From an uncultured Bacteroidia bacterium (lineage in GTDB: Bacteria > Bacteroidota > Bacteroidia > Bacteroidales > F082), in the NCBI GenBank assembly GCA_902801625.1, contig CADCJI010000018.1, positions 1-54,416 on the forward strand: a DNA stretch of 54,416 nt. Direction: 5' to 3'. How positions within the stretch are numbered: position 1 is the stretch's first letter; the number at the start of each line of letters is the position of its first letter. Both the position numbers and the translations under genes were made by a program. Positions 6,963-47,558 of this stretch are shown here, piece after piece. The notes under the pieces were generated by a model that saw nothing but the letters and a program-made list of their open reading frames with translations, had not been told where the DNA came from and did no database searches.

Positions 6963-9900
6963 ATGAGAAAATTGAACGCAATGAATAAAGGGTTGAATTT
7001 TAGATTGAGCATGCTTGTCTCGCTCTTATTTTCCTTTTTTGGTGCAAATGCCCAAAGCACCGATTTCACTGGCTATTGGTTTATTGCCAATGCCGATGGC
7101 TATTCTGTTGGCAATGTTAACAACTATTATTTGGTTCCCGCTAAAGATCCTCAAGTGGCTCATTATGCAGATGCCTACTTCAATGATCAATACTGTAGTA
7201 ACAACGGTAGTGGCGATTACACTGGTGACCATTATGGTGACCCCGAGAAGCCTTTCCTGACCACCCATCGTAACGATACAGATGCTGAGCCTGAAAATCT
7301 GATTTGGCATGTTGTATCAACAGGAGATGGTTATTATTACATCATTCATGCATTGTCTGGAAAATATGTGCTGTATGAGCCTCCCTATCAATCGGCGGTG
7401 AATCGAAAGTCAATGCACCTGCAAGAGACGGACTCGCCTAGCGACAACAATAAGTTTGAAATTACGGGGAGCTTGACAGGTAATATCAATATCCGGCCCT
7501 TCAGTCTTACTACAGGCAATCGTTATTGGAATCCTGCCACTAATAATTACAATCAATATTATGCTAATGGCGGTAATTATGTGCATGTTGGTATGATTGG
7601 CGTCTATAACAGTGCGACTGATACCAAATCCTGCTGGCGTTTCGAGGAAGATGTCTTGGAAATGCCTACGTTTACGGTAAATGAGGCCGACAAAGAAGTC
7701 ACTATCAATAACGACCAATTAGATGTCACCATATATTACACTTTGGATGGCTCCACGCCCGACAACACCAGTAGCAGTTTTGCTGCTCCTGGCGGAACCG
7801 TCAACATAGGACCGTATAGAAAAGTAGTCAAAGCTGTAGCCTATAGGGATGGTGTCTATACCAACGTGGCCACGATTGAGGTTGACTTCCGCGTGGCTAT
7901 AGAAATCAGTAGCTTAGATGAGATTGTCGACACCGATGGCTTTTATCAACTCATCGCTGACATTGACGATGCTTCGAGCCATACCACAATCAATAGTTTT
8001 ACTGGAAGATTTGATGGACAGTTCCACACCATTTCTGGCTTGACACAGCCTTTATTTGGTACAGTAAATAATGCTACGGTTTATAATATAGTGTTGAAAG
8101 ACGTAAACATTGAAAATCACGAAGGTAACACCGGAGCCATTGCTTGCGAAATCAACGAAGGCACATGCATTTACAACTGCGGCATTCTCAGTGGTTCGGT
8201 GGGAGGCACTGGCGACACAGGCGGTATTGTGGGATTGCTCACTGCCACCTCGGTCCAGACTATCCCAGATGGTTTCATGCCCACTCGCGTCATTAATTGC
8301 TACAGCTATGCCGATATTACCTCTGCAGGTGAGTATGCGGCAGGCATCGTTGGAAACAATTCGAGAGGCTCGACTTCACAAATCACCAACGGAAAGTACA
8401 ATAATTTGAGAACAGTGGTGGTGAACTGCATGTTCTATGGTGATGTACTTGCTGGAACAAACAAAGCTCCCGTTTATGGCAACAAACGCTTGCAAAATAG
8501 CACCAACGGCATCAACAATTACAACTATTTCATGGTTTCCGCCACTCTTGATGACGAATTCACCAATATCAATCAGTACAATTGCTCATGGCCTGTCGAA
8601 GAGCGGTTCTTGACCCGTTTCGAGTATTTCCGTAATATCCTCAACAGTAACCGTCGTTTGTGCACATGGTGGATTACCCAAAAACAGTATGACGACCAGA
8701 CCGACAACGACATTAATCTCATGGCCAAGTGGGTGCTCGACCCGAGCATTGCGCCTTATCCCATTCTGAAACCTTGGGGTAAGTATCCTTCAAACATTAA
8801 TGTGGATCAAAACCAGGTGTGGGATGAGGCAAGCCAGACATGGAAGAGTCGTGACAACGCCTTGCCATTCCAAGGTAAGAAGTTGGGCACACTGTCGGTT
8901 ACGGTTAAGGCTGGTTCCCACAATAGTAGTGCACAGGATGTGGTTTTGACGCTTCCTATTCTTGACATGGACACTTTGCATCATGATTTCAGCTATGCTA
9001 AAGTGCAGTTACCATATTACAATGAGCAATTTGGTAATGCTAATGCCACTACCCATGCCGAAAAATATGGTAACAACTATACAGATAAGGTGGTTACAGG
9101 ATGGAAGATTAACTCAGTGACAGATGGCACACAAGGCACTTTTGTGGAGAATTGGGAGAGTGGTTACAATTTTGCAGACCGCTATTGCACTGACAAGGAT
9201 CTTTACGCTGTTAGTGGTCGCGTTTTCGCGCAAGGTGGCTATTACTATGTTCCGGAAGGTGTTACGGCTATCACCATTGAAGCCTATTGGGGCAATGCCG
9301 TGTATTTGCACAATAAAGAGCATTCCATCGACCGTGTCAATTTGGGCGATAACGACTTTACACCAGCAGGCAAGTTTCCTGCGACATTTAACGGACAACC
9401 AGTGTATGCGGATATCAAGACCGCTATCAATAGTGGTATGGCTTTAGAGGGTTCGGGTGCTTCGGTGGTGACGGTTTACGACCAAGCCTTGGTGTTGGTT
9501 GGTAATGTTCAGCATAGGAATAGCGGAACGGTTGACATTCTTGGTTGGACAAATGGAAATGGAAACGAAGAATTCGCAACCCATAACAGGCCTTTCACCA
9601 TCACTAGTGTCGACCTTGACTTTGACAACGAGCCTGACTATTGTTTTGAATGGCAGTTTTGCGTTAATACCATCCGTTTGAATCTTCATCCCATACGATT
9701 TGATTTCTTGCCGGTTCCCACCTTGGGTATGGCCATTCGAAAGGACGGTGCCTTGCAGACCATTGGCACGTTTGTACCACGCGGCCATTTTGAGATTACG
9801 GAAACTGCATTTATGCATACCGGTCAGTTTGAGTATGACACACGTGACAACTATCGTAAGGAAGAGTCACCCGTGATTCTGAATGGTGGTGAGTTTGAAC

Positions 9901-12900
9901 AAATCGTTTCTTCGAATAGTTGGAATAATACTTTAGGTCCCCTTAATCGTACTAAATACTTCATTTTGGGTGGCCACGTATGGATGAAAGAATTCACGCC
10001 AGGAAAACATGGTGACTTGAATGCAGCTACCCGACATTGCGCTGTCAGTGTTTTGGGTGGAGAATATGAACGCTTCTGCCTTTCAGGTGTCTTTCTTGTC
10101 AACAATCATGTACATAGTACCCCCGACAATCCTCATTGCTACACCAATGGTGGAAAGTTTGGCATCATGTCAGGTGCGGGCATGGAAGACATTTACGGCA
10201 ATGTCACTTTCAAGGTCGACCATTCACTGATTGGTGAGTTTTATGGTGGCGGCCTCAATGCAGCAAGACCTGTCACGGGGAGTATTGACGTCACCATCAA
10301 TAACAGCATTGTGGGTAAGTATTGTGGAGGTCCCTTTACAGGCGACATGCTAGAAGGTACCACGGTGACCACTGTGGCCAACAACACCATCTTCGGACAA
10401 TTCTATGGCGGTGGCAACGGTGGTACTAACTTCAACCGCAACCGCCTATATAACAATGGTCAGGCAGCTCTTAGTTTCATTACGGAAGCCAATTGGAGAG
10501 GGGCAGGAAAATTCGATGAGTTTACTCCTCTTAGTTATGTTAGTAGCGATGCAGGCTACCAAGCCCAGTTTGAGTTTGAATTAATTGACATGAGCTCCGG
10601 ATCGGCTAATAATGTTGTGATGCGAACCTACCGTCATGAGGCTCAGTTTACGGCCACTGAGGTAAGGGAGGTTAATTCTGCCTTGACCGATTGCACGGTA
10701 TTACAGGACTTTTACGGAGGCGGTAACCTCGGTAAGGTGACGGGGAATGTGACTTCTACTTTACTTAACACCACCATTTGGGGTTCGGCCTATGGTGGAG
10801 GCAACTCAAGCGATGTGCCCTCGTTCCCCATTCACGACAAAGAGTCTGTTGTGTTCCCGTGGCGCGACTTGGCTAGCATCAACCATGCCGGCTCGTTGGA
10901 TTACGTGAGAGACGATGGTGAAATCAGATACTACAAATGGATCCATGACCTTCCTGACGGTGTCACCGCGAGTACTAATAATCCTGCTTTCCAATACGAA
11001 GGGGAATGGTATTGTTATACTGAGAAGGATATGACCAACCTTGGCAGTGTGGGTGGCAATACCATCCTCAATGTCAATGGTAACAGTAAAATCTATGGCG
11101 TGCGCGAAGAACTAGACAGTGGCAATGCTCAAACATTCTACGATGGTGCAGCCTTCGGTGGGGGTAACGAAAGCGCTGTGTTTGGTAACTCAACGGTCAC
11201 TGTAGACGGTGATGACGATATATTGGTGAGTAATGTCTATGGTGGCGGTAACGTCGCTATTACTGGAGGCAGTTCCAACGTTGTGATATATAACGGCACC
11301 ATAGGTGTGGCTACTGAAAATGATGTTCCTTATGTAGGTTCTGGTTATGTGTTTGGAGGCGGTAGAGGTTTGTTTGAAGACGAAAACGCGGGCAGTGTGG
11401 GTGTCAATTCCAGTGTCCTCATGGAAGGAGGTCACGTGCTTAGGTGTGTATATGGTGGTTCGGAGTATGGCAATGTGGGGGCGACAACAACCGAAAATGG
11501 GTTGAGTGTTCCTGTAGATGACACAGGCATCTCTACCGTCACCATCAATGGAGGCTCGGTAGGCATTGAGCGTTCGGTTGATTCAATCATTGCAGTCCAA
11601 TATGGCAATGTTTTTGGTGGTGGCAAGGGTAACTTGGATTACTCCTTCAATATGAGGACTAATATTAACAAGGCTGTCGTCAACATTAATGGTGGTAGGA
11701 TATACGGTAGCGTGTTTGGTGGTGGCGAGGAAGGCCATGTGCTTGGCGATGTACTCTTGAATGTCACCAATGGCCGTATTGGCACCTTCGGTTACACAGG
11801 ATATGACGGCTGCGTTTTCGGAGGTGGTCTGGGCAGCAACACCATCGCCTTAACTGCGGGTAGCGTTGGCGGCAACATTGAAGTCAATGTCACAGGTGGT
11901 ACAATGTTAGGCTCTGTGTATGGTGGTGGACGTTGTGGATCTGTTGGTTTCTTTTTTGCTCCTGTGGAGGATGAAGAACATTATGGCATCATGCAGGAAG
12001 GCGACGACCATGGCTTTATTACCGTCAATATCAGTGGCGGCGAAATCGGACATGGTTTGGCAGGCTCTGGTATTCCCGACCATATCGGCGGCAATGTGTA
12101 TGGTGGTTGCAAGGGTATTGTTGAGGCACCTTCTCCCACTTCAATAGCGGAAAAGATGGCCTATGCAAAAGAGACTACCGTGAATATTTTTGAAGCGAAT
12201 GGTCACGCTCCTTTCATTAGAGGTTCTGTATTCGGAGGCTCAGAGGACGGTCACATCCTCGACAACACCCATGTCAACATTATGGCTGGACAGGTGGGTG
12301 GCACTGAGCTTGATAATTTGACCGCTGACGGCAATTCACTCCATGGAAACGTGTATGGTGGAGGTCGCGGATGGGATCAATATTATGATGAAGAAGGTAA
12401 ATTGCGTTACTGTCTAACCTCTGGTCATGTATACGGCAATGCTTACGTTACTATTTCAGGAGGTAAAATCTGCCGTAACGTGTATGGTGGTGGCAATATG
12501 TCGTCGGTGGGCCAATATGAGATCTTGCTTGACGGGGAAGGGAACCCCATCTTGGATGAAAATGGCAATACGCAGTATGTTTTGGACGACAACGGCGATC
12601 CCATTCCCGTTGCTGGTACAGGCTTGGCGCAAATCGACATGACGGGAGGCGAAATCGGTAACCAGAACGATGAAGGAAGAATGCATGGAAATGTGTTTGG
12701 TTCTTCACGTGGTATGGCTGGTGCCGAATTCAAGGAATTGGGCTGCGTCCACAATACGGATGTGAAGATTGAAGGCGATGCTATCGTCAAGGGTAGCGTT
12801 TTTGGCGGAGGTGAGGACGGTCATGTGATCCAGAATACGAAAGTCACCATCAATGGTGGAACCATCGGCGTTACCGAAGGCGATCCGTTCAAGGGCAATG

Positions 12901-15900
12901 TCTATGGCGGTGGCCGTGGCATCGACCTTGACCCCAATGGAGAGACCAGCCCGACGGCAGGTCTTGTCAAAGGTCATACTAGAGTGTATGTCAACGGCGG
13001 CAGCATTATCAACAGCGTCTATGGCGGTGGCAACATGAGTCTGGTGGGCGAGGAGCGAGTGGTTAACGTGAATGGTGGTCTGGTGAAGGTGAATGTATTT
13101 GGCGGTAGTAAAGCCCTGCCCGAAGGTCGTGTTCAGCTGGGCATGAAGACGGTAAACATGCGTGGCGGACATGTCATGGGCAACGTTTATGGCTGCAACA
13201 ACAATGCTTTGGACGGCGATGTTGACCATCCTAAAGATTGGACCTCTTTTGTCAACATCAATGGTGGCGAGATTGACGGCAACGTTTTCGGCGCAGGCTA
13301 TTCTTGCACCGTTAATGGCTCGGTTTGCGTCAATATTGGTAAAGACGCTATCCTCAATGCACCTAATAAGGAATACAATCTCTATTATAAGGATTGCGGT
13401 GGTGATGAACCTCAGTATAATCCCGAAGGTATTGAACCGGCAGCAACCAAATTGATTATCGGTAATTCTGTGTACGGAGGCTCCGACTTCTATGGCAATA
13501 ATTCCAACTCCAACACTTGGACGGATTTCATTGTGTCGGGTTACAGTAACATTTATATTGACGGAACAGGATACGATACACAAAACCAAGGGTCGAATAC
13601 TGAAATGACGATTTTAGGAGGCTTGTTTGGCAGTAGTACCCACTGCGAGTCGGGAGCCGAAGGGCGTCATATCCTGCTTAAGGCTTACGGTCACCGTGAT
13701 GATGATGGAGCCAATACCGAACTCACCCATGCCACTCGAACCTTGAAAACTATCCAGCGGTGCGGCAATCTGGTGATTGACCATTCCAATGTTAATCTTA
13801 GCGGTATGAACGACATAAGTGGTAATGGAAAACGCCAATATGCCGTGCTTAAGGTTGATACGACCTTGTATATGGCCAATGCTAGTGGCTTTGTGTTGGG
13901 CTCACCCAGCGTCCCTGCTTATATGGATTCTATCCGCAAGGTGCGCAGCGTGCATCTGAAACAATCCTCCTATTCTGTTTACGATGTGCCTTTCTATGGC
14001 ATGCTTGACGATGATGCCTATGACTATTGGGAGTGGATTGGCATCAAAGGCGATTCAGAGGAAACGGCACACTTGTACTATACAGTTTCCAACACTTCGA
14101 CGCCTTTGACTTACGCTCAAGAGAATGTCCTGGTCTTCAAGGGTGATTCAAGGCTTTGGGTAAGATATCACCGCAGAGAACAACAAGACGATGGCAGTTG
14201 GGTTGACTTGGGTCAATACTATGGCGAATTGGAAGGCTTCTTCCGTATGAGAAGTCCGTTCCAGCCATGGGGCACTGAGAGTTTCGCATACGCACGCCCT
14301 AAGATTTCAGAAGGCAATACTGAAAATACAGCGGATGGTGGCTTCTTGAGCTACAATACGCCATACAATTTCTTTGTCGACTTGGGTGAATCGTTCACCA
14401 ATACCCATCAGCATCCTTATACGAATGTGTTGCAATTCTTCAAAGGTGACCGTATTGATTATCGTGAATGGGTGATTCGTGAGTTCAGAGGTCGCCGCTG
14501 GTATGTTGACGGCACAAGAGGCTGGGGAAGAGACGATATGTCGAAGACTGACGGTTGGGGACTTTATCCTGACATGCCTAAAAAGACGGTCTCGGGAGCT
14601 GTGACCTATGATCAAAGTACGCAGACAGGTAATTTTGGAGGTATCTGTTCTGAGATTTTCACGGATGGAAGTCTTATTGACTACAATTATGATTACCAAA
14701 ACGATATCATCTATGTGGTGGGTGCCTTGTCGGCAGAAGACGAAAGTGCTTTGATTCAAGGTGGAACGATTGAAGTGGAAGGTGAGACGCAGACCTATCC
14801 GTTGAAGCTCTATCGCTATCCTGGTGGACATCCCTTGAATTGGTCACGCCAACATAGTAATGAACCCTATTATGATCTTGGCGATGGAACGCTCAATCTC
14901 ACTTCGACCAATGAAGGTCTGACCTATCCGAATAGTGAGGGTCCAGGAGCCAACTATGGTGCTATGCTTGTGGTTCAAGATGATGAAACGATAGCTTTGG
15001 ATAACGTGCAGATGGACGGTTTGTATGGTCATGTCCAAGGAGACGATGCCTATTTCTTGATACCAGGAACCTACTATCCTGACCCCGAATTGGAACCTTA
15101 TCCAGAGGCTGATCCAGCGATTGACCCTTCTACACTTGGTGTGCCGGTCTTTAACCAAAACGAAGTGTCGGAACCATTGATTGTGACTCACTCGAATTCG
15201 GAACTGACTTTGAACGGTTCAACGATGAACGGCACAGGTGTCACCAGGTTTGGAACCATCTTGGAGCGTGGCTATAACAATACGAATGCTGATGTGTGGT
15301 ACACCAATGCCGATTACAGCGACAATGGTGAAGTCACGCATCATGGCGGTGGTATCTATGTGAATCCTACGGCTACAGTAAATGTTGAGAATGTGGTGAC
15401 TATTGTCGGTAACAAGCAGAACTTGCAAATTGGAACTGATGCTGCCGAAGCCATCGAAAGTAATGTCTATTTGCCCACATTCGACAAACACCTTAATATA
15501 ATAGGAGAGATGCCTCTTGACGAGGCAACGAGCATAGGCGTTACCAGCCCTATAAGGAATATTGCTCCTCATTTTGTCCACAACACCTTCTCGCCAGTAG
15601 CGGTGGCCTTGACTCAGGCGCAAGCTGAATCTGCATGGAACCGTAATAATTTCCATGATGATTTGGAATGGTTCTTCTCGAATGAGAGCTTCGCTTTACC
15701 CAAGTACACATATTATTCCACATCCATTTCGGACTATGCCTATCCATTGACGGACCAAAGTCAGCACATCAACCATTTTGATCCGACCAAGACCTTGTTC
15801 TTTGGCTGGACTTGGAACAACGTTGTGAGAAGCGCTCCTCAAGAATTTGCCTTAGATGCCATCGATTCGCCTTACGATTTGGCATGGCTTATAAGTTTGG

Positions 15901-18900
15901 TGAATGGTAGCAATCGCCAAACACCTTCAAATGATTTTTCAAATACGACGATAAAGCAGACGGATGATATTGACCTGCAGATGTATGTTTGGGTGCCTGT
16001 TGGCGCACAAAAGACGGGCTCGTCAAGCTTTGCCGGAACCTATGACGGACAAGGACATTTGATTGAGAATTTGGATATCGCTTATATTGGCGAGGGCGAC
16101 CGCAGGTATGAACGCGCTAATTATGGCCTGTTTGGTAGTGTGAATGGCGGTGCCGTCGACCGTACATTTGTAGTCAGTGGTTACATCTGCCCAGTGGGCT
16201 CTGCCAACATTGGTGGTTTGGTGGGTGCTATGGAGGGTGTCTCAGCCATGATTTCGAATAGTGAGGCTTCGGTTGACATCTACAGTCCTGACAAAGAGAA
16301 TTCCGAGAATGCCACAGGAGGTTTGGTGGGTAATATGTTGGATGGCGAAATCCATTCTTCTATGGCCATGCCTATCATCCATGCCAATCTCTATTATTCT
16401 ATCGGTGGCTTGGTGGGTCGTACCATCGGCGGCGGACAAGGCGAAAGCGTCAGGAAACCTAAAATCAACAACTCGTTTGCTAATGTCAGATTTGATGTGG
16501 CGAACAATGCCTCGGTTACGGTGGGTGGCTTGATAGGCATCAATTATGGTGCAGATATGGAGAACTGCTATTTGCATTTGCAGAACAACGGTGCAGGACT
16601 AAACAACTCCAATTTTGCCTTGTTGGCCGGTCTTAACAACGGTGGTAAAATCAGATATTCCTATGCCTACGAAGGATATGATTACCCATTCACAAGGGTG
16701 ATGGGCAGTGGTGGCGACCCCAACCTCAGCGACTGCTACAAGTACAGTCCAATCATGGATGCGGACAACTTGGGCTATATGTATTTTGACAATGTGGTTA
16801 CTATTAGTGATAAGAAAGTACCCATGTTCAGGCTGTTGAACAAGTGGGTGGCGAGATCCACTAATAGTGGTGATTATTCATCTTGGTATCGTCCTGCCAT
16901 CGCTGAAATCAATGGTGACCTCCCCGTGTTGCTCTTGAACAACGAGGACGATGGCAAGTTAGGTATGGGCGATTTCCGCAGCATGGCCACTTACAAAGGT
17001 GGTTATCCACAGTTGGGCGCCTTCCCCGAAAATGATGAACAAAACCCATACGTTGTGCTGCAATATGGAGGCCCCATACGCGATGGTTCTGACGATGAAC
17101 TTGACGCCATGGTGGAGCGGATGGGCAACTTTAATGATACACAGCAAGAAACCATCAAGGATTACCTGTATGTATATGGTGACATTACCCAAGAATTGAC
17201 GTCGGCTTTGGCAGCTAGTAAGATTGGCAAGGTGAGCATTCATGAGGACGCTGCAATTCAGCATCCTGGTACTTTGTCAGAATTTGAAAACACCTACGTG
17301 GGTGTCACTTTCGACAACTCATACTGCCAAGCCTATTCCACGCCAGGCATCAACGAAGGCCTGTACGGCGAAGGCCCGTTCCTGCTGCCACGCGACTGGC
17401 ACATGTTCTCTTCGCCGTTGCAAGAGGCTCCTTTGGGATTCGACTATAAGGGCCATAATATAGATACCTATAGTAATTCAGACCATAGCGATGCAGATCA
17501 TTACAACAACCCATGGGAAAGCATGGAACAAGAGTTTACTTGGCTCAATGGCAATCAGACTGGCAATATTCGCTATTGGATGAAAGGCTGGGAAAACAGC
17601 TTGAGCCAACAAGGTCACGAGACGGAGGAAACTGGTAACAATTGGGTAGACGGTTACTTCCCGAGCCGAGTCTCGAGCGTGGGCAGCAACGTGACGGGCT
17701 TCGAGTTCGGTCAAGGCTGGATAGACGAGACAAACTCGAACCTACATTCTGACGAGATAGGTTGCTTCCCCTACGGCATGGATTTCTACACTTGGACCGA
17801 GCCGTTGTACCACTGGATCAACTTCAAACGAAATGGTCCGAACCACTGGCACAGCGATGTGAACCCGTTGACAGACCATCACGACCATCTCGACTACAAG
17901 CCCGTCGAAAATGATGACAGGTTCCAAGCCAATGTGAATGAGGAGATACTAATTCCCGGAAGGGGCTACATGATGGCCATTAGCGACACGACGTTCATGC
18001 AGAGCCATGGTAAGTTGAATAATGACAACCAAGGCATCTATCTCACGAAGCGAGGTGCCAATCTGAAAGGGTGGAATTTGGTGGGCAATCCCTACCATGC
18101 CTACCTCGATTTCAATGCAGTGGCCATGAAGAATGGAAATGTATTGAGCAAGCAGAATGGCAATGCATTCTACGTAATCTATGATGCTGATAGATATGAG
18201 ACTGACGCTTACGTTTACTACCCGATGACGGGTTCGGAAGGAGGTGCTTACGCGGGTCAGTTCCTGCATCCTCATCAAGGCTTCTATGTATTGGCTGGGG
18301 ATGAAGGTGTTCTCCAGTTTACGGAAGACATGACCGTTGCTCGACAATCACTCAATCCGGATGATGGAGATTTTGACGGCCACTTCCGAGGTTGGAAACC
18401 GAAATATCCTTTGGTGAATCTCTATTTAAGCAGCGAGAATGGTTGTAATGATGTGACGGTGGTCGAGTTTGAGCGTCCCGATTGGGGTGGAGCCCGCAAG
18501 ATAAAGGAATTGCGCATGGGCAATGGCTTGTTCTATGCCCAGCACAACGACACTCACTATGCAGCGCTCTTCGTCAAGAAGGGTACTGAGCGTGTGCCGC
18601 TGTGGTTTGAACCCATGGAGGATGATGTTTTCACAATTAAGTGGGAGACCGCCAATGGTGTCTTCCATAGCATGTATCTTGTCGATAACATGACGGGAAT
18701 ACGTTATGATATGACAGAGAATGACAGCTACTCATTCCAAGGTCATGTGGGTGATTATCCTTCGCGCTTCTACATTACCTTTGACGTGACTGATGTGGAA
18801 GAGCATGAGGAAGACATCAATCACAGCTTTGCCTTCTTCGATGGCTCCCAATGGATGGTGACAGGCAATGGTGAACTTGAGTTCATTGACCTGCAAGGCC

Positions 18901-19037
18901 GTGTGCTGAGCCGGATGAGAGTGAGCGGTGGACAAAGCAGGGTGAATTTGCCTGATGTGGCCAGCGGCATGTATCTGTTCCGCTTGACCAATGGACAAGA
19001 AACAAAGATTCAGAAAATCATAGTAAATAGGAGGTAA
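6963..19037 (+). CDS. Giant T9SS-exported repeat protein (4024 aa)
   Basis: One uninterrupted 12-kb frame. Signal peptide at 1-31 (ends GANAQ). Residues about 32-240 resemble a beta-trefoil-like module; 245-310 a chitobiase C-terminal-type beta module (YYTLDGSTPDN); about 345-480 a first GLUG-like stretch (GRFDGQFHTISGL, GGIVG). Residues about 1090-2220 carry roughly 25 irregular repeats with a [VFA][YF]GG[GS] signature (VFGGGEEGHVLG, VYGGGNMSLVG), each with short hydrophobic/Gly strands, suggesting a long beta-helix or solenoid. A second GLUG block (GGLVGAMEG, GGLVGNMLDG, GGLIGINYG) spans about 3020-3200. Near 3700 is the NLVGNPYHAYLDF module, common just before T9SS signals, and the last 70 residues (GELEFIDLQGRVLSRM ... 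GMYLFRLTNG) form a type A sorting domain. It should be secreted by T9SS and anchored at or released from the cell surface. Function unknown; adhesin or glycan binding is a guess. A small gene follows 4 nt downstream. Confidence 0.9.
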   Translation: MRKLNAMNKGLNFRLSMLVSLLFSFFGANAQSTDFTGYWFIANADGYSVGNVNNYYLVPAKDPQVAHYADAYFNDQYCSNNGSGDYTGDHYGDPEKPFLTTHRNDTDAEPENLIWHVVSTGDGYYYIIHALSGKYVLYEPPYQSAVNRKSMHLQETDSPSDNNKFEITGSLTGNINIRPFSLTTGNRYWNPATNNYNQYYANGGNYVHVGMIGVYNSATDTKSCWRFEEDVLEMPTFTVNEADKEVTINNDQLDVTIYYTLDGSTPDNTSSSFAAPGGTVNIGPYRKVVKAVAYRDGVYTNVATIEVDFRVAIEISSLDEIVDTDGFYQLIADIDDASSHTTINSFTGRFDGQFHTISGLTQPLFGTVNNATVYNIVLKDVNIENHEGNTGAIACEINEGTCIYNCGILSGSVGGTGDTGGIVGLLTATSVQTIPDGFMPTRVINCYSYADITSAGEYAAGIVGNNSRGSTSQITNGKYNNLRTVVVNCMFYGDVLAGTNKAPVYGNKRLQNSTNGINNYNYFMVSATLDDEFTNINQYNCSWPVEERFLTRFEYFRNILNSNRRLCTWWITQKQYDDQTDNDINLMAKWVLDPSIAPYPILKPWGKYPSNINVDQNQVWDEASQTWKSRDNALPFQGKKLGTLSVTVKAGSHNSSAQDVVLTLPILDMDTLHHDFSYAKVQLPYYNEQFGNANATTHAEKYGNNYTDKVVTGWKINSVTDGTQGTFVENWESGYNFADRYCTDKDLYAVSGRVFAQGGYYYVPEGVTAITIEAYWGNAVYLHNKEHSIDRVNLGDNDFTPAGKFPATFNGQPVYADIKTAINSGMALEGSGASVVTVYDQALVLVGNVQHRNSGTVDILGWTNGNGNEEFATHNRPFTITSVDLDFDNEPDYCFEWQFCVNTIRLNLHPIRFDFLPVPTLGMAIRKDGALQTIGTFVPRGHFEITETAFMHTGQFEYDTRDNYRKEESPVILNGGEFEQIVSSNSWNNTLGPLNRTKYFILGGHVWMKEFTPGKHGDLNAATRHCAVSVLGGEYERFCLSGVFLVNNHVHSTPDNPHCYTNGGKFGIMSGAGMEDIYGNVTFKVDHSLIGEFYGGGLNAARPVTGSIDVTINNSIVGKYCGGPFTGDMLEGTTVTTVANNTIFGQFYGGGNGGTNFNRNRLYNNGQAALSFITEANWRGAGKFDEFTPLSYVSSDAGYQAQFEFELIDMSSGSANNVVMRTYRHEAQFTATEVREVNSALTDCTVLQDFYGGGNLGKVTGNVTSTLLNTTIWGSAYGGGNSSDVPSFPIHDKESVVFPWRDLASINHAGSLDYVRDDGEIRYYKWIHDLPDGVTASTNNPAFQYEGEWYCYTEKDMTNLGSVGGNTILNVNGNSKIYGVREELDSGNAQTFYDGAAFGGGNESAVFGNSTVTVDGDDDILVSNVYGGGNVAITGGSSNVVIYNGTIGVATENDVPYVGSGYVFGGGRGLFEDENAGSVGVNSSVLMEGGHVLRCVYGGSEYGNVGATTTENGLSVPVDDTGISTVTINGGSVGIERSVDSIIAVQYGNVFGGGKGNLDYSFNMRTNINKAVVNINGGRIYGSVFGGGEEGHVLGDVLLNVTNGRIGTFGYTGYDGCVFGGGLGSNTIALTAGSVGGNIEVNVTGGTMLGSVYGGGRCGSVGFFFAPVEDEEHYGIMQEGDDHGFITVNISGGEIGHGLAGSGIPDHIGGNVYGGCKGIVEAPSPTSIAEKMAYAKETTVNIFEANGHAPFIRGSVFGGSEDGHILDNTHVNIMAGQVGGTELDNLTADGNSLHGNVYGGGRGWDQYYDEEGKLRYCLTSGHVYGNAYVTISGGKICRNVYGGGNMSSVGQYEILLDGEGNPILDENGNTQYVLDDNGDPIPVAGTGLAQIDMTGGEIGNQNDEGRMHGNVFGSSRGMAGAEFKELGCVHNTDVKIEGDAIVKGSVFGGGEDGHVIQNTKVTINGGTIGVTEGDPFKGNVYGGGRGIDLDPNGETSPTAGLVKGHTRVYVNGGSIINSVYGGGNMSLVGEERVVNVNGGLVKVNVFGGSKALPEGRVQLGMKTVNMRGGHVMGNVYGCNNNALDGDVDHPKDWTSFVNINGGEIDGNVFGAGYSCTVNGSVCVNIGKDAILNAPNKEYNLYYKDCGGDEPQYNPEGIEPAATKLIIGNSVYGGSDFYGNNSNSNTWTDFIVSGYSNIYIDGTGYDTQNQGSNTEMTILGGLFGSSTHCESGAEGRHILLKAYGHRDDDGANTELTHATRTLKTIQRCGNLVIDHSNVNLSGMNDISGNGKRQYAVLKVDTTLYMANASGFVLGSPSVPAYMDSIRKVRSVHLKQSSYSVYDVPFYGMLDDDAYDYWEWIGIKGDSEETAHLYYTVSNTSTPLTYAQENVLVFKGDSRLWVRYHRREQQDDGSWVDLGQYYGELEGFFRMRSPFQPWGTESFAYARPKISEGNTENTADGGFLSYNTPYNFFVDLGESFTNTHQHPYTNVLQFFKGDRIDYREWVIREFRGRRWYVDGTRGWGRDDMSKTDGWGLYPDMPKKTVSGAVTYDQSTQTGNFGGICSEIFTDGSLIDYNYDYQNDIIYVVGALSAEDESALIQGGTIEVEGETQTYPLKLYRYPGGHPLNWSRQHSNEPYYDLGDGTLNLTSTNEGLTYPNSEGPGANYGAMLVVQDDETIALDNVQMDGLYGHVQGDDAYFLIPGTYYPDPELEPYPEADPAIDPSTLGVPVFNQNEVSEPLIVTHSNSELTLNGSTMNGTGVTRFGTILERGYNNTNADVWYTNADYSDNGEVTHHGGGIYVNPTATVNVENVVTIVGNKQNLQIGTDAAEAIESNVYLPTFDKHLNIIGEMPLDEATSIGVTSPIRNIAPHFVHNTFSPVAVALTQAQAESAWNRNNFHDDLEWFFSNESFALPKYTYYSTSISDYAYPLTDQSQHINHFDPTKTLFFGWTWNNVVRSAPQEFALDAIDSPYDLAWLISLVNGSNRQTPSNDFSNTTIKQTDDIDLQMYVWVPVGAQKTGSSSFAGTYDGQGHLIENLDIAYIGEGDRRYERANYGLFGSVNGGAVDRTFVVSGYICPVGSANIGGLVGAMEGVSAMISNSEASVDIYSPDKENSENATGGLVGNMLDGEIHSSMAMPIIHANLYYSIGGLVGRTIGGGQGESVRKPKINNSFANVRFDVANNASVTVGGLIGINYGADMENCYLHLQNNGAGLNNSNFALLAGLNNGGKIRYSYAYEGYDYPFTRVMGSGGDPNLSDCYKYSPIMDADNLGYMYFDNVVTISDKKVPMFRLLNKWVARSTNSGDYSSWYRPAIAEINGDLPVLLLNNEDDGKLGMGDFRSMATYKGGYPQLGAFPENDEQNPYVVLQYGGPIRDGSDDELDAMVERMGNFNDTQQETIKDYLYVYGDITQELTSALAASKIGKVSIHEDAAIQHPGTLSEFENTYVGVTFDNSYCQAYSTPGINEGLYGEGPFLLPRDWHMFSSPLQEAPLGFDYKGHNIDTYSNSDHSDADHYNNPWESMEQEFTWLNGNQTGNIRYWMKGWENSLSQQGHETEETGNNWVDGYFPSRVSSVGSNVTGFEFGQGWIDETNSNLHSDEIGCFPYGMDFYTWTEPLYHWINFKRNGPNHWHSDVNPLTDHHDHLDYKPVENDDRFQANVNEEILIPGRGYMMAISDTTFMQSHGKLNNDNQGIYLTKRGANLKGWNLVGNPYHAYLDFNAVAMKNGNVLSKQNGNAFYVIYDADRYETDAYVYYPMTGSEGGAYAGQFLHPHQGFYVLAGDEGVLQFTEDMTVARQSLNPDDGDFDGHFRGWKPKYPLVNLYLSSENGCNDVTVVEFERPDWGGARKIKELRMGNGLFYAQHNDTHYAALFVKKGTERVPLWFEPMEDDVFTIKWETANGVFHSMYLVDNMTGIRYDMTENDSYSFQGHVGDYPSRFYITFDVTDVEEHEEDINHSFAFFDGSQWMVTGNGELEFIDLQGRVLSRMRVSGGQSRVNLPDVASGMYLFRLTNGQETKIQKIIVNRR

Positions 19038-19418: not shown

Positions 19419-19449
19419 CCCCTCAAATTGGAAATGAATTATCTTGGAT

Positions 19450-21219
19450 ATGGAAATAAAAAGAGTCTTCGATCTTCTTGACAACTATGTCGAGAAGTAC
19501 CCCAACCAACAAGAAGCCCTTGCTGGAAAAAAGAACGGTCAATGGGTGAAATACAGTTCTACATCATATAAAGAACATGCCGATACGCTGAGTTATGCCC
19601 TTATTGAGTTGGGCATTGAGAAAGGCGACAAGGTGGCGATGATTTTGACCAACCGTCCCGAATGGAACATGCTTGACATGGCTATCAGCCAAGTGGGTGC
19701 CGTCACGGTTCCTGTCTATCCCACCATCAGCGAAGAGGACTACCGCTACATCCTTCACGACTGCGATGCCAAGATGGTCATCATCGACGGCCTTAGCGTG
19801 ATGAACAAGGTGACCAACATCTTGCCTGATGCGCCCAACGTAAAATTGGTCTATACCATGGTCGACCGCGAGAAATATCCCTATTTCGACCAGCTGCTTC
19901 AACTTGGTAAGGAACATCCTCATGCTGAGGAGTTGGCTGCCCGCAAGGCTGCTGTCGATGAAATGGAGTGTGCCACCATCATTTATACTTCGGGTACCAC
20001 TGGTACGCCTAAAGGTGTGATGCTCTCTCACCACAACTTGATGAACCAGTTCCCGAACTTCCACTACACCATCAGCGACACCTCGAACAAGGCCTTCAGC
20101 TTCCTGCCCGTGTGTCATGCCTACGAGCGCGCACTGAATTATTGCTACCAGTATCGCGGCATGTCGATTTACTATGCCGAGAGTTTGGGTACCATTGCCA
20201 ACGACATGCGCGAGGTGCATCCCACAATGATGTGCGCTGTGCCGCGTGTGCTTGAACGATTCTACGACGCCATCCTGCAGTCGGGCAAAAAGCAGAAGGG
20301 CATCAAGAAACGCATCTTCTTCTGGGCAGTGCGCCTTGGCGAGCGTTACAAGATTGACGCGGTCAGCCGCCATTGGTTCTATGATTGGAAGTTGGGTATC
20401 GCCGACAAGTTAGTATACGCCAAAATCAGACAGGGCATTGGCGCCGACAATTTCGACATCATCGTGTCGGGTGCTGCTGCCATTTCACAGAAGATCGCTG
20501 GATTCTTCTCGGCCATCAAGATGCCCGTGTTCGAAGGCTATGGTTTGACTGAAACCTCTCCTGTTATCGCCGTCAGTAACCGCAATCCACATGGGCGCGA
20601 AGTAGGTTATGTGGGGCAGCCGTTGCCAGGCACCGAGGTGAAGATTGCCGAAAACGGCGAAATCCTTTGTCGTGGCCACAATGTGATGATGGGCTACTAT
20701 AAACAGCCTGAGCTCACCAAAGAAGTGATTGATGAGGATGGTTGGTTCCACACGGGCGATATGGGTGAGTTTGACCAATATAACCGCCTGAAGATAACAG
20801 GTCGTATCAAGAGCCTCTTCAAGACTTCGGGCGGCAAATACATCAACCCTGACATGATTGAAGCCAAGTTCTCCTCCTCCAAACTGATTGAGCAGATTTT
20901 GGTGGTAGGTGAGAACCAGAAGTTTGCCGGTGCCCTCATCATCCCGAGCTTTACCGACCTAAAGGCTTGGTGTGCCGAAGAGAACATCCCTTACACGACC
21001 AACGAGGAGATGATCCAAAAACCTGAAGTGCTGAAGCGTTATGCTGCCGAAATCAACGAGCTGAACAAGGGTTTGGGCGAGACCGAAAAGGTCAAGAAGC
21101 AGGTGTTGCTTGCCGATGAGTGGAGCATCAACAATGGCATGCTCACTCCGACGCTCAAGGCCAAGCGTAAAGTCATTACCGCGAAGTATAAGGATGTCAT
21201 CGATAAGATGTTCGCTTAG
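19450..21219 (+). CDS. fadD: Long-chain fatty acid-CoA ligase (AMP-binding)
   Basis: A 589-aa member of the ANL adenylating enzymes. The phosphate-binding loop YTSGTTGTPKGVM is at about 179-191, the adenine motif GYGLTETSP near 365-373, and the hinge/ATP motif (GWFHTGDMG, ITGRIKSLFKTSGGKYINP) follows, with the C-terminal Lys-bearing lid intact. It activates fatty acids to acyl-CoA through an acyl-AMP intermediate at the inner face of the membrane, for lipid synthesis or degradation. The ATG at 19450 is preferred to an in-frame TTG at 19444. It is monocistronic, ending against convergent speA across two large hairpins. The gene symbol is by family; chain-length preference is unknown. Confidence 0.9.
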   Translation: MEIKRVFDLLDNYVEKYPNQQEALAGKKNGQWVKYSSTSYKEHADTLSYALIELGIEKGDKVAMILTNRPEWNMLDMAISQVGAVTVPVYPTISEEDYRYILHDCDAKMVIIDGLSVMNKVTNILPDAPNVKLVYTMVDREKYPYFDQLLQLGKEHPHAEELAARKAAVDEMECATIIYTSGTTGTPKGVMLSHHNLMNQFPNFHYTISDTSNKAFSFLPVCHAYERALNYCYQYRGMSIYYAESLGTIANDMREVHPTMMCAVPRVLERFYDAILQSGKKQKGIKKRIFFWAVRLGERYKIDAVSRHWFYDWKLGIADKLVYAKIRQGIGADNFDIIVSGAAAISQKIAGFFSAIKMPVFEGYGLTETSPVIAVSNRNPHGREVGYVGQPLPGTEVKIAENGEILCRGHNVMMGYYKQPELTKEVIDEDGWFHTGDMGEFDQYNRLKITGRIKSLFKTSGGKYINPDMIEAKFSSSKLIEQILVVGENQKFAGALIIPSFTDLKAWCAEENIPYTTNEEMIQKPEVLKRYAAEINELNKGLGETEKVKKQVLLADEWSINNGMLTPTLKAKRKVITAKYKDVIDKMFA

Positions 21220-21220
21220 C

Positions 21221-21297
21221 AGTTTTTGTTCTACCGTGCATAGATTCCATTCCCGCATACCCTTGCTTGGAATGACATGCACGGTAGAGCAAAAACT
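21221..21297. terminator. Terminator-like hairpin with conserved ATAGATTCC/GGAATGACAT tip (copy 1)
   Basis: The outer arms 21221-21241 and 21277-21297 pair over 21 bp with one mismatch; the A5/T5 ends make it a bidirectional terminator after fadD. The tip holds ATAGATTCC ... GGAATGACAT, which recurs in other hairpins of the window whose outer arms are unrelated. Confidence 0.8.
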
Positions 21298-21298
21298 T

Positions 21299-21370
21299 GA
21301 ATTGCCTGACCTCTAATGTCATTCCTGTTAAGGAATGTGCGATTGGAATCTATTAGAGGTCAGGCAATTC
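21299..21370. terminator. Terminator-like hairpin with the conserved tip in reverse orientation (copy 2)
   Basis: Arms 21299-21317 and 21352-21370 are a perfect 19-bp inverted repeat. The tip, read on the minus strand, is AGATTCC ... GGAATGAC with flanking AT, the same core as the adjacent hairpin but inverted. It ends 3 nt before the speA stop, so the two hairpins separate two convergent genes, one core facing each gene. Confidence 0.8.
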
Positions 21371-21373
21371 ATT

Positions 21374-23260
21374 TTACTCCAAATAAGTATATCCGTATAG
21401 CCCTGACCGGTAGTTCGACAAGAACTCCTTGCCTTCTTCAACCGAAATCTTGCCTTCCTTCACGCACTTGGTGACCCAAGTCTCCACCGTGCGGACGAGT
21501 TTCTTCGGGCTGTATTGCACATATTCCAGCACATCAGCCACGGTCTCGCCATCGATGACTTGGTCGATGTAGTAGCCCTTTTCGTCCACCGAGATGTGCA
21601 CCGCGTTGGTGTCGCCAAACAGGTTGTGGAGGTCGCCCAAGATCTCCTGATAGGCACCCACGAGGAAAACACCAATATAATAGTGTTCCTTTTCGCCAAA
21701 GGAGTGCAGCGGGATGGTGTGTTGCGTCGACTTGGCGACAAAGTTGGTGATTTTGCCGTCGCTGTCGCAAGTGATGTCCTGCAAGGTGGCGAGGTGGGTT
21801 GGGTTCTCATCAAGTCTTTGGATGGGGATGATGGGGAAGAGCTGGTCGATGGCCCAAAGGTCGGGCAGCGACTGGAACAGCGAGAAGTTGCAAAAGTATT
21901 TGTCGGCCAAGAGCTTCGGCAATGAAGTGAAGTCTTCGGGAACGCGTTTCAGGCTGTTGGCGATGTGGTTCACCTCGCGGGCAATGCTCCAAAACAGGCG
22001 TTCAATCTTGGCACGCGACTTGAGGTCGAGCAGGCCGAGGCTGAACAGGTTGAGGGCTTCCTCACGGATTTCTTGGGCATCGTGCCAGATTTCCAAGGAA
22101 GAGCTCTTGGTCAGCTCGTCCCATGAATCATAAAGTTCCTTGATGAGCTCGTGGTCGTTTTCCTCAGGCTCCTCATCGTCGTCCCATTCAGGCAGAGAGG
22201 TCTTTTCCAGCACCTCGAAGATGAGCACAGAGTGATGTGCTGTTAGGGCGCGCCCCGACTCGCAGATGACGTTGGGGTGGGGGAGTTCGTTCTTGTCACA
22301 GGCATCCACGATGGTATAGATGGCGTTGTTGGCGTATTCCTGGATGCTGTAGTTGACCGAGCTGGCGCTACTTGAGCTGGTGCCGTCGTAGTCGACGCCG
22401 AGGCCACCGCCCATGTCGACGTATTCGATATGGTAGCCCATCTTGTAAAGTTGCACATAGAATTGTGCCGCCTCACGCAAGGCCACATTGATTTTCTTGA
22501 TCTTGCTGACCTGGCTGCCGATGTGGTAGTGTACCAATTTCAGGCAGTCCTTCATGTCGTGTTCTTCAAGGAAGTCGAGGGCTTCGAGGAGTTCGGAAGA
22601 GGTGAGGCCGAACTTGCTGCCGTCGCCACCCGATTCCTCCCATTTGCCTGCGCCGGAGCTGGCCAACTTGATGCGCACACCGAGGTTCGGCGTGACTTTC
22701 AGTCGACGGGCAATCTTGGCCGTAATCTTCAGTTCGTTAAGCTTTTCAATGACGATGATAATTTTACGACCCATCTTTTGGGCCAGCAAGGCGAGTTCGA
22801 TGAATTCTTCGTCCTTGTAGCCATTACAAATAATGAGCGAGTCGGAGTCGGTGCCGAGGGCGATGATGGCGTGGAGCTCTGGCTTTGAGCCGGCTTCCAG
22901 ACCGATGTTGCACTTCTTGCCGTGGCTGACGATCTCCTCGACCACGGGGCGCATTTGGTTCACCTTGATGGGCATCACCACGAAGTTTTGGCCGTGGAAT
23001 TCGTATTCCTTGGCCGCCTCCTTGAAGCAGGAATCGATCTTGTTGATGCGGTCGTCGAGGATGTCGGGGAAACGTAACAGCATAGGAGCTGAGACGTCCC
23101 TAAGTGACAGCTCGTCAACCAGTTCTGGCAGGTCGACCGAGGCACAGCCTTCCTTGGGTGTCACGACCATGTGGCCTTTTTCGTTGATGGAAAAATAACT
23201 ACCGCCCCAGCCTTTCACGTTGTAAAGGTCTTCGGAGTCTTCAATGCGCCATTTTCTCAT
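21374..23260 (-). CDS. speA: Biosynthetic arginine decarboxylase
   Basis: A 628-aa fold III (alanine racemase-like) PLP decarboxylase, the usual SpeA length. The PLP Lys is K99 in MPIKVNQ; the Gly-rich phosphate site appears as VDMGGGLGVDYDG, and the C-terminal barrel carries CESGRALTAHHSVLIFEV, where the Cys is the second-subunit catalytic residue of this family. It makes agmatine from arginine, the first step of the agmatine route to putrescine/spermidine. The Mg2+-dependent biosynthetic form is cytoplasmic in most bacteria. Single gene, convergent with fadD. A TAGTTTTG -7 box lies 28 nt upstream. Confidence 0.95.
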   Translation of the reverse strand: MRKWRIEDSEDLYNVKGWGGSYFSINEKGHMVVTPKEGCASVDLPELVDELSLRDVSAPMLLRFPDILDDRINKIDSCFKEAAKEYEFHGQNFVVMPIKVNQMRPVVEEIVSHGKKCNIGLEAGSKPELHAIIALGTDSDSLIICNGYKDEEFIELALLAQKMGRKIIIVIEKLNELKITAKIARRLKVTPNLGVRIKLASSGAGKWEESGGDGSKFGLTSSELLEALDFLEEHDMKDCLKLVHYHIGSQVSKIKKINVALREAAQFYVQLYKMGYHIEYVDMGGGLGVDYDGTSSSSASSVNYSIQEYANNAIYTIVDACDKNELPHPNVICESGRALTAHHSVLIFEVLEKTSLPEWDDDEEPEENDHELIKELYDSWDELTKSSSLEIWHDAQEIREEALNLFSLGLLDLKSRAKIERLFWSIAREVNHIANSLKRVPEDFTSLPKLLADKYFCNFSLFQSLPDLWAIDQLFPIIPIQRLDENPTHLATLQDITCDSDGKITNFVAKSTQHTIPLHSFGEKEHYYIGVFLVGAYQEILGDLHNLFGDTNAVHISVDEKGYYIDQVIDGETVADVLEYVQYSPKKLVRTVETWVTKCVKEGKISVEEGKEFLSNYRSGLYGYTYLE

Positions 23261-26070: not shown

Positions 26071-26482
26071 CGCTTTGCGCCGCGTCGCTTCGTGTCATTG
26101 CGAGGAGGCACGACGAAGCAATCCAGGGAAGCCGCAACCTGCAAACGCTGTCGTTTACCAGCTATGTTATGTTTAGAACCCTCGTCGTTTCGCGTCATTG
26201 CGAGGAGGGACGACGAAGCAATCTAGGAGTGTCGCTTTTTATCTGGATTGCTTCGTACCTCGCAATGACGCAAAGCGGGTCCGGGTGCGAAGCCCAGTAA
26301 TGAGCGTCGCATAGTTTCTTTGTCGCTTTGCGCCGCGTCGCTTCGCGTCATTGCGAGGAGGAACGACGAAGCAATCTAGGGAAGCCGCAACCTGCAAATG
26401 CTGTCGTTTACCAGCTATGTAATGTTTAGGACCCTCGTCGTTTCGCGTCATTGCAAGGAGGAACGACGGGCGCCATCTAGGA
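26071..26482. repeat. Array of GATTGCTTCGT / CATTGCGAGG palindromic repeats with a 158-bp direct duplication
   Basis: Copies of CGTCATTGCGAGGAGG.ACGACGAAGCAATC occur at about 26095, 26193, 26346 and 26443, with an inverted copy (GATTGCTTCGTACCTCGCAATGACG) at 26246. Block 26071-26228 is repeated directly, with few differences, at 26324-26482. The 500 bp between the truncated ORF and the GIY-YIG gene hold only this array and the terminator at 26019; I see no gene. Such palindromes are known as dispersed REP-like repeats in many bacterial genomes. Confidence 0.85.
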
Positions 26483-27101: not shown

Positions 27102-28074
27102 ACAACTCATCAGACGTGATCCATGTGTAACTCTTATCCTTCCTCAACCAAGTCATCTGCCGCTTGGCGTACTGCCGCGTGTGGATCTTGATTTGCTCAA
27201 CGGCCTCTTCAAGGGTGCATTGCCCATCATAATAGGTGAAGAGTTCCTTGTAGCCTACGGTGTTTAAGGCATTTAAATGGCGTTTGGGATACAAGGCTTT
27301 GGCTTCTTCCAAAAGGCCTTGCTCCATCATCATGTCGACACGGCGGTCGATGCGCTCGATGAGGGCTTGTCGGTCCCAAAGCAGGGCGTATTTCTTGATG
27401 TCGAAGTCGCGGTGGACGGTGTTGCCACTGCGGAAGGAGGAGAAAGGCTGTCCCGTTTGGTAACAGACCTCCAAAGCCCTTTGCAAGCGGCGAGGGTTCT
27501 GTTGGTCGACGGTGGCATAATACTCGGGGTCGAGGCGCTGGACTTCGTCTTGGAGGACTTTCAAGCCTCCATTGTCCAACAGTCTTTGCACTTTCTCCCT
27601 GATTTCGGGCTCCACATCAGGCATAGCATCGATGCCATTGCAGACCGCATCGATGAAAAGACCGGAGCCGCCCGTCATGATGACGGCATCGTGGGTCTTG
27701 AAGAGCTCATCCAACAATTGTAGAACATCGCGCTCATAGTCGGCCACGTCGTATTTGTCCTCGATGCTGATGTGGTGCACGAAGTAATGCTTGGCTTGAC
27801 TCAGCTCATCGTCGGTGGGTGCTGCCGTGCCGATGCACATTTCTTTATAGAACTGCCGGCTATCGGCGGAGAGGATGACGGTGTTCAAAGCCTTGGCCAC
27901 TTTGATGGCGAAAGCGGTCTTGCCTGATGCGGTGGGGCCAGCGATGACGACTAAGGTTTTCTTATTAGTAGGGTACGGGCCCTTCGACAGGCTCAGGGAC
28001 TCTTCGCTTTTCATAAGGCTAAGGTCCCTGAGCTCGTCGAAGGGCCGATTTATATGGTTTATGCCATTATCCAT
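27019..28074 (-). CDS. miaA: tRNA dimethylallyltransferase with palindrome-encoded ends
   Basis: 351 aa, longer than the usual 300 or so. The core is canonical: P-loop GPTASGKT (46-53), DSRQFYKEM with the conserved Asp/Ser/Arg/Gln, the MTGGSGLF motif and the C-terminal RQYAKRQMTWLRKD. It transfers a dimethylallyl group to A37 of tRNAs reading UNN codons. Residues about 10-33 (RPFDELRDLS ... SLSKGP) are encoded by a dispersed palindrome, and the last 30 or so residues (DELCCDSPCRRHDLL ... ) by another set of palindromes. The ATG at 28074 follows the cca stop by one base (TGAAATG), which supports it; an ATG at 28011, within the repeat loop, is the alternative. Third gene of clpC-cca-miaA. Confidence 0.92.
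   Translation of the reverse strand: MDNGINHINRPFDELRDLSLMKSEESLSLSKGPYPTNKKTLVVIAGPTASGKTAFAIKVAKALNTVILSADSRQFYKEMCIGTAAPTDDELSQAKHYFVHHISIEDKYDVADYERDVLQLLDELFKTHDAVIMTGGSGLFIDAVCNGIDAMPDVEPEIREKVQRLLDNGGLKVLQDEVQRLDPEYYATVDQQNPRRLQRALEVCYQTGQPFSSFRSGNTVHRDFDIKKYALLWDRQALIERIDRRVDMMMEQGLLEEAKALYPKRHLNALNTVGYKELFTYYDGQCTLEEAVEQIKIHTRQYAKRQMTWLRKDKSYTWITSDELCCDSPCRRHDLLFTPHDIVWGSTHQPQ
27978..28046. repeat. CCCTTCGACAGGCTCAGGG palindrome inside miaA
   Basis: Arms 27978-28002 and 28022-28046 pair over about 25 bp with a few mismatches around a 19-nt loop. The sequence belongs to a palindrome type I recognise from many bacterial genomes, and here it is read in frame as MiaA residues 10-33. Confidence 0.85.
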
Positions 28075-35343: not shown

Positions 35344-37986
<2,643 letters not shown>

Positions 37987-37990
37987 TGAG

Positions 37991-38053
37991 AATAGCCTCC
38001 CATAGATTCCCGCTTACGCACATGCCTATGTAGGAATGACATGGGAGGCAATT
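37991..38053. terminator. Hairpin with conserved ATAGATTCC/GGAATGACAT tip after gyrA (copy 3)
   Basis: Arms AATAGCCTCCCAT (37991-38003) and ATGGGAGGCAATT (38041-38053) pair over 13 bp with one mismatch; the tip is ATAGATTCC ... GGAATGACAT. The outer arms are unrelated to those of the other copies. No T-tract, so termination is less certain than at the others. Confidence 0.7.
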
Positions 38054-38130
38054 CAAACCACTTTGGAACAATAATTGCTATAGAAAAGAATAATCATAAC
38101 GAAATTGTCAAACTTTAAATAATTGAGAAA

Positions 38131-41732: not shown

Positions 41733-41810
41733 GACTATGGCACATGGCTAATGGCCTATGGCTTGCCTTCACGTGAGGGCAGCCATAGGCCATTGTCATA
41801 AGCCATAGTC
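41733..41810. repeat. Heptad-arm palindrome between the NfnAB-like gene and a convergent unknown gene
   Basis: The left arm repeats ATGGC every 7 nt four times (41736-41763). It pairs with GCC-rich units on the right: AATGGCCTATGGCT (41750-41763) with AGCCATAGGCCATT (41781-41794), and GACTATGGC (41733-41741) with GCCATAGTC (41802-41810). The tip is the palindrome CTTCACGTGAG. It fills nearly the whole gap between two stop codons and may act as a bidirectional terminator. Confidence 0.8.
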
Positions 41811-47499: not shown

Positions 47500-47558
47500 A
47501 AAAAAAGCCTGCCTTCTATAGATTCCCGAGGGAATGACATAGAAGGCAGGCTTTTTTT
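47500..47558. terminator. Bidirectional terminator with conserved ATAGATTCC/GGAATGACAT tip (copy 4)
   Basis: A7-GCCTGCCTTCTAT (47500-47519) pairs with ATAGAAGGCAGGC-T8 (47539-47558), with the tip ATAGATTCCCGAGGGAATGACAT in its short form. It lies between two convergent genes and has strong A and T tracts. Confidence 0.9.

Follow-up and report, generated by a model that had tools for sequence, protein, structure and literature searches.

The question raised by this stretch of DNA, a 54,416-nt window from an uncultured Bacteroidia bacterium, is how hairpins that share one centre can each carry outer arms that pair with one another and differ from hairpin to hairpin. An earlier note on the sequence had placed four such hairpins at 21221, 21299, 37991 and 47500. 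All four are present as placed, and the pattern, the inverted arms and the fold z-scores agree on them:

21221..21297, + strand: element 1, long tip of 35 nt; left arm 21221-21241, core 21242-21276, right arm 21277-21297
21298..21371, - strand: element 2, long tip of 34 nt; left arm 21298-21317, core 21318-21351, right arm 21352-21371
37990..38054, + strand: element 3, long tip of 37 nt; left arm 37990-38003, core 38004-38040, right arm 38041-38054
47500..47558, + strand: element 4, short tip of 19 nt; left arm 47500-47519, core 47520-47538, right arm 47539-47558
21240..21278, + strand: near-constant centre ATAGAT...ATGACAT of element 1, found also at 21316-21353 (-), 38002-38042 (+) and 47518-47540 (+)

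The pattern AGATTCC-N-GGAATGAC has four matches in the window against 0.01 expected, and none of 100 shuffles gave four. The arms of elements 1 to 4 are inverted repeats of 21, 20, 14 and 29 nt with 95%, 100%, 93% and 86% complementarity (the innermost 20 bp of element 4 are perfect), and the RNA folds reach z-scores of -10.6, -9.0, -5.3 and -8.9 relative to dinucleotide shuffles; all four also fold far better than shuffles as DNA. Inner ATTCC/GGAAT pairing, drawn for all of them in the earlier note, is predicted in elements 3 and 4, whereas elements 1 and 2 (21221-21371) are predicted to pair other bases of the long tip. Elements 1 and 2 lie in opposite orientations and occupy the whole gap between the convergent ORFs 19444-21219 (+) and 21374-23260 (-). 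Element 3 directly follows the stop of ORF 35344-37986 (+), and element 4 is placed between the convergent ORFs 46549-47493 (+) and 47565-47996 (-), where its arms end in an A-tract and a T-tract and so look like a two-way terminator. A known RNA family for the hairpins was rejected, since the window has no Rfam match at gathering thresholds. Elsewhere in the window, a single ORF of 4024 aa spans 6963-19037 (+), and an inverted repeat, GGCCCTTCGACAGGCTCAGGGAC / GTCCCTGAGCTCGTCGAAGGGCC, lies at 27978-28046 in or near an ORF.

A search of the whole genome (3.58 Mb, 62 contigs) for AGATTCC-N-GGAATGAC, as the earlier note had proposed, returned 53 copies, with none for the reversed-pattern control. 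The looser motif ATAGAT-N8-38-ATGACAT is found at 91 places (46 forward and 45 reverse, with one match for the reversed control), where the inner stem is mostly TCC/GGA, CCC/GGG or GCC/GGC; a handful of places that lack an inner stem may be chance matches. Read 5' to 3', the unit consists of arm, AT, AG, AT, a short inner stem, loop, inner stem, AT, GAC, AT and the opposing arm, and its centre is an asymmetric internal loop in which AG lies opposite GAC between AT pairs. The AG/GAC loop, like the AT pairs beside it, is close to constant, the inner stem (TCC, CCC, GCC and a few others) varies little, and the outer stem varies widely yet stays paired. The common core expected from the window exists but is looser than claimed, since copies with AGATCCC..GGGATGAC and AGATGCC..GGCATGAC also occur. 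The two tip classes are confirmed as a short one of 18-20 nt and a long one of 34-41 nt, and loops range from 3 to about 25 nt, with about 20 nt in the long tips. Hidden structure in the long loop, in the form of two mini-hairpins, was considered and rejected: among tips of 37 nt (76 distinct), 38 nt (42) and 40 nt (13), other tip lengths being too few for the covariation test, strong covariation is confined to one pair, the variable one in the inner stem. Close neighbours, less than 130 bp apart, form 19 pairs, 16 in one inverted order and 3 in the other, and this predominance of a single inverted order resembles REP dimers.

Pairing of the arms is specific to the locus. Scored outward from the core, the 53 copies have a mean arm score of 11.7 with their own right arms versus 3.2 with the right arms of other copies; none of 1000 partner shuffles reaches the observed mean, the best giving 4.5, and 47 of the 53 score at least 8. 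The first two positions outward are T-A in 98% and A-T in 100% of copies, and positions 3-9, each with 3 or 4 pair types, are paired in 92-98% of copies versus 30-53% between loci. The same is seen in the 52 copies of G021, a relative with 93-94% identity in the first locus compared, where the arm score is 10.5 with self and 2.8 between loci. The self-pairing of flanks that the earlier note had reported for four hairpins thus holds across the genome, whereas its description of the outer stems as unrelated to each other does not. Among 64 elements compared (those in fetched stretches, variant cores included), 15 match another one at 80% identity or more across arms and core, with 90% as the highest value, and arms such as CCGCCTCCCAT/ATGGGAGGC and TTTTGAAGGCAT/ATGCCTTCAAAA recur in the genome. 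The alignment of loci L013 and L002 contains a compensated pair change in such subfamily arms. Over all copies, the arms form subfamilies that have diverged with pairing kept, and the four hairpins of the window belong to different ones.

We consider it probable, at roughly 0.6, that these hairpins belong to a REP-like palindromic element that is non-autonomous, of CGTC type and extended by its own outer arms. The machinery that spreads such an element would recognize the bulged hairpin as a structure, and the outer stems would drift into subfamilies with their pairing kept. Copies are found at gene 3' ends, those with short tips and A/T tracts being probable two-way terminators, and in frame within genes; after insertion the arms would decay by single changes and the hairpin would sometimes be replaced by another. 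No insertion event was observed directly, and the 64 elements contain no pair above 90% identity, which leaves recent movement within this genome unproven. One pair in G021 is 98% identical, and since its flanks are also alike, a larger duplication is possible there.

Position relative to genes bears on a different account, in which the hairpins are ordinary intrinsic terminators whose pairing is kept by selection for termination and whose core is a relic or a protein site. Against mechanically called ORFs, a rough classification in which locus L022 counts as tandem though its flanking genes are convergent, 18 of the 53 copies are between convergent ORFs, 18 between tandem and only 2 (one dimer) between divergent ones, and 15 lie within 13 ORFs. 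Among the 12 short-tip copies, 7 are between convergent ORFs and 2 are tandem, and several have A and T tracts; going by position and tracts, short-tip copies of this kind are probably two-way terminators in function. At terminators, paired arms could be maintained by nothing more than selection for termination, which counts against the element reading, and compensatory evolution of terminators has a precedent in the accessible part of PMC5381666. The account leaves unexplained the copies inside genes, the subfamily arms and the repeat-like copy numbers, and long-tip copies have loops of about 20 nt. We therefore regard it as very unlikely for the hairpins as a whole.

The copies inside genes sit in frame, and the product is otherwise intact. 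Of the 10 longest element-spanning ORFs searched against Pfam (the short ORFs of L008, L019 and L040 were left out), all except L009 have a match above the cut-off. The matched families are PMT_2, topoisomerase, glycosyltransferase, GH20, radical SAM, GH77, polyprenyl synthetase, PrmC N-terminal/methyltransferase and FAD oxidase, and the radical SAM, polyprenyl synthetase and GH20b domain matches extend across the insert. On the coding strand the 37-nt tips use a single frame, x-I-D-S...N-D-M or N-D-I, in L003 (two copies), L009, L010, L025, L038 and L045, and the short tip of L041 is read in that same frame. L044 and L036 carry the in-gene element in reverse orientation, and L032 carries an inverted pair. 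In species with empty sites the reading frame around the site is kept.

Orthologous sites, compared over 30 loci each with this genome included, are filled, empty or otherwise occupied. The radical SAM gene of L045 contains an AGATTCC-type element at the same codon in 20 of 30 loci (one with a degenerate core), an 82-nt AGATAC type in 5, and no hairpin at all in the remaining 5; our L045 differs from the empty L203 by 63 bases, or 21 codons/residues. The 82-nt inserts at this codon (L188, L190, L196, L199 and L200) are double hairpins with AGATAC/GTATGAC-type centres. At the second copy in L003, a core of this kind is present in 12 of 30 loci (two of them 82-nt nested and two with 61-nt tips), and the rest have other sequence, including unrelated palindromes, or nearly nothing (L355, L361, L362). 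Across L333-L362, this one loop of a PMT-like membrane protein gene holds in-frame inserts of several unrelated palindromic kinds and is a hot spot for coding palindromes. An inverted repeat in the window at 26186-26277, CGTCATTGCGAGG ... CCTCGCAATGACG, has similar sequence in frame in the PMT-like gene of L350, L357, L358 and L360. The L038 site is filled in 14 of 30 loci, two with 61-nt tips.

At gene ends, 13 of 30 loci have two elements at the L022 site, in either of two arm alleles, and another 13 have other sequence there; in the last 4 (L410, L412, L415, L416) the same convergent ORFs have overlapping stop codons and no hairpin. Hairpin-free sites such as these and those of L045 bear on the proposal of the earlier note that an element inserts into the loops of existing terminators. 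Under that proposal the core enters the loop of a pre-existing hairpin, e.g., a terminator, and the outer arms are old host stems. Such insertion can happen, since 768 kb of G021 contain three nested cases (L117, L126, L130) in which a whole element lies within the loop of another, and some filled 47500 sites have outer AAAAAGCC/GGCTTTTT in common with the plain hairpins of other species. The hairpin-free sites (4/30 at L022, 5/30 at L045) indicate that it is not needed and not the rule, and the subfamily arms are common to copies at different loci. Within the genus, the 47500 site has the core in 16 of 30 loci (two degenerate) and a plain short hairpin in 14, mostly with GCCACC where filled loci have GCCTGCC and others, and none of these 14 equals the filled stem minus the core. 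As a general origin of the arms, loop insertion is thus highly improbable.

The site at 21219-21374, home of elements 1 and 2, is occupied by other hairpins in close relatives: G021 has a short-tip element with other arms, and G033 has a plain terminator. A long hairpin in the window at 41733-41810, CTATGGC ... AATGGCCTATGGC / GCCATAGGCCATT ... GCCATAG, belongs to a family that occupies the 21219-21374 site of G016 and of G029 and adjoins the orthologous gene end in G066, which indicates that different palindrome families occupy the same gene ends. An imperfect inverted repeat at 46447-46531, ATGGCCTATGACCATGAC / GTCATGGTCAGTGGCCAT, is perhaps a relative of this hairpin.

An important question is what keeps the arms matched as species diverge. 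Of 26 elements aligned to G021 with both flanks and some core, 20 were used for the count of pair changes; the six omitted are L005, which is inverted, L038, which has another tip, L022 and L044, where the element is replaced or rearranged, and both elements at 21219. Among 320 outer-arm pair positions, 261 are unchanged, 12 are lost and 3 gained by one-sided changes, and 44 are unpaired in both genomes. Two-sided changes number 0 of 320, which indicates that homogenization of the arms is not fast. Pairing is lost mostly through single-base changes, and on longer time scales selection, template switching or replacement brings it back. Over longer distances, orthologous arms pair better within than across species at four sites, with scores of 11.4 versus 6.75 at L045 (17 distinct rows, 0 of 2000 shuffles), 16.1 versus 7.7 at 47500 (13 rows, 0 of 2000), 9.85 versus 6.39 at the second copy of L003 (13 rows, 1 of 2000) and 9.0 versus 8.45 at L038 (13 rows, 21 of 2000), differences that relatedness, which the permutations ignore, may inflate. 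The rows were chosen by patterns, which left some orthologs out and brought in a few rows other than the exact ortholog: L335, L336 and L360 in the L003 set come from a neighbouring element, and L177 in the 47500 set was taken on the other strand.

These data are also relevant to a third account, in which the arms are grown or re-formed by template switching, one strand being copied from the other so that flank is inverted and the arms stay alike without selection. Inversion of a spacer and homogenization of arms are known products of template switching according to the portions available of PMC8604942 and PMC8794818, and the tip is inverted in 2 of 6 short-tip orthologs relative to G021 (L011 and L005), with arms kept or nearly kept, as is the core in 5 of the 16 filled 47500 loci. 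One two-sided change between our genome and G021 lies in the inner stem of L012, outside the 320-position count. In the coding gene of L045, where pairing follows lineage, the within-species excess given above is what template switching would produce, subject to the same inflation by relatedness. In addition, where its relatives have 9 pairs, L371 of genome G069 continues for another 6 into coding flank, and at L341, also a coding site, the arms score 20. The one-sided losses and gains against G021, with no two-sided change, argue the other way; L371 differs from L379 in the extension by only two bases, and the L045 site also fits a simple insertion between CAG and GCC. We consider template switching unlikely as the source of the arms. 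Under the element reading, the tip inversions seen between orthologs would reflect occasional template switching across the arms.

The earlier note had also raised the possibility that insertion creates an inverted copy of flanking DNA. In its fullest form this would mean that the bulged REP core seeds palindromes, with template switching copying neighbouring host DNA, coding sequence included, into an inverted arm and keeping the arms matched. Only single cases, L371 and L341, are suggestive of such copying, and simple insertion explains the main coding locus equally; we do not claim host-derived arms at L045, since insertion between CAG and GCC with the arms of the element itself suffices. 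We find this version quite unlikely. If it were true, stems would be made on the spot, genes would gain in-frame peptides, and new terminators could arise from any flank.

Comparison with described repeats places the element close to one REP class. The earlier note had likened its centre to dRS3 of Neisseria and other GGGAATGAC palindromes, and this likeness is supported: the available text of PMC3733652 classes dRS3, together with RPE-4 and RPE-6 of Rickettsia, among the CGTC REPs, whose layout the core shares. As far as that text describes them, CGTC REPs have in common with our element a GTC tag beside the hairpin, AT as the first two stem pairs and a short unpaired tail on the other side, as well as dimers, intergenic and intragenic copies, and no linked transposase gene. 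The AT pairs are present here as part of the searched pattern itself (AGAT...ATGAC). The tag is TGTC rather than CGTC (the base next to GAC is A), and the tail is CTA, its outer A pairing with the T before GTC, whereas the CGTC REPs described there mostly have an unpaired CCA. The inner stem is about 5 bp, AT pairs included, with a loop of 3 to about 25 nt, compared with 8-9 bp and 4-5 nt in the same source. CGTC REPs form dimers there, mostly head to head; 16 of our 19 pairs are in one inverted order, which may be head to head in the convention of that paper. Unlike in CGTC REPs, tag and tail are enclosed by an outer stem, mostly of 5-21 bp, that differs between copies. With tag, tail, stem and loop lengths all different, the element is CGTC-REP-like and not a member of the class.

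Rickettsia palindromic elements are likewise palindromic repeats in frame in unrelated genes, judging by the available parts of PMC3733652 and PMC6649704. They belong to a different lineage, and the identity of their repeats is reported in the accessible text of PMC6649704 to be lost over time, whereas the arms of our element stay paired across species, though with one-sided decay between close species. Quasipalindromes made by template switching share arm matching and the inversion of a spacer between inverted repeats, but as portrayed in the available sections of PMC8794818 and PMC8604942 they are inverted repeats from whatever source, while the centre here is a dispersed conserved element. 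The parts available of the open-licence PMC literature, including a 2025 REP survey (PMC12306157), contain no description of this element.

The outer arms also set the element apart from similar cores in other lineages. A scan of one genome per species for the core pattern gave at least 110 stretches and 80 named records, 79 of which could be scored (L245 ends too near the core). Among the matches listed, 47 records bear names other than Bacteroidales or Bacteroidia; their 47 copies all score below 5 for outer arms and are mostly self-contained hairpins with a median inner stem of 8 bp. The Bacteroidales and Bacteroidia records, 32 of those listed, contribute 42 copies, of which 34 possess outer arms, and here the inner stem has a median of 5 bp. 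The locus-specific outer pairing, which the earlier note had singled out as new, is thus unusual within this set of matches. In the genus, probably an uncultured group of Bacteroidales from the rumen, the strict pattern occurs in 37 of 99 genomes, ours included, at 1 to 59 copies each and 714 in total (our genome is counted there as 52), a copy number that is patchy and repeat-like.

REPs and BIMEs associated with RAYT transposases (GTAG REPs) are also small hairpins found as inverted pairs and at gene 3' ends, and the earlier note had suggested looking for a RAYT or IS200-like transposase. The foot of our element is ATAG in 52 of 53 copies, as opposed to GTAG in RAYT REPs. No linked Y1 gene was found among the Y1 genes examined: the element is present in 1 of 74 fetched Y1 loci and absent from the other 73. 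Y1 genes are present in 43 of 60 genomes, including all 17 with at least 8 copies of the element, and Y1 number correlates with copy number over the 60 (Spearman 0.56, to which relatedness may contribute). Eleven of the 60 have at least 3 Y1 genes yet at most 3 copies, and the 69 proteins taken from the 74 loci, which are a selection of the Y1 matches, include no subfamily that is both universal in and restricted to high-copy genomes. On these grounds a Y1 transposase was rejected as the identified partner of the element; mobilization by an IS200-like Y1 enzyme acting in trans would be possible.

With these copies, rumen Bacteroidales join the lineages that have in-frame palindromic repeats in their genes, and the element connects REPs, Rickettsia-type coding palindromes and terminators, which are usually studied apart. 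Since many genomes of the genus offer sites that are filled, empty, inverted or replaced, the cause of arm matching, whether selection, mobility or template switching, is directly testable in this group, also in coding sequence, in which an RNA hairpin is unlikely to be under selection.
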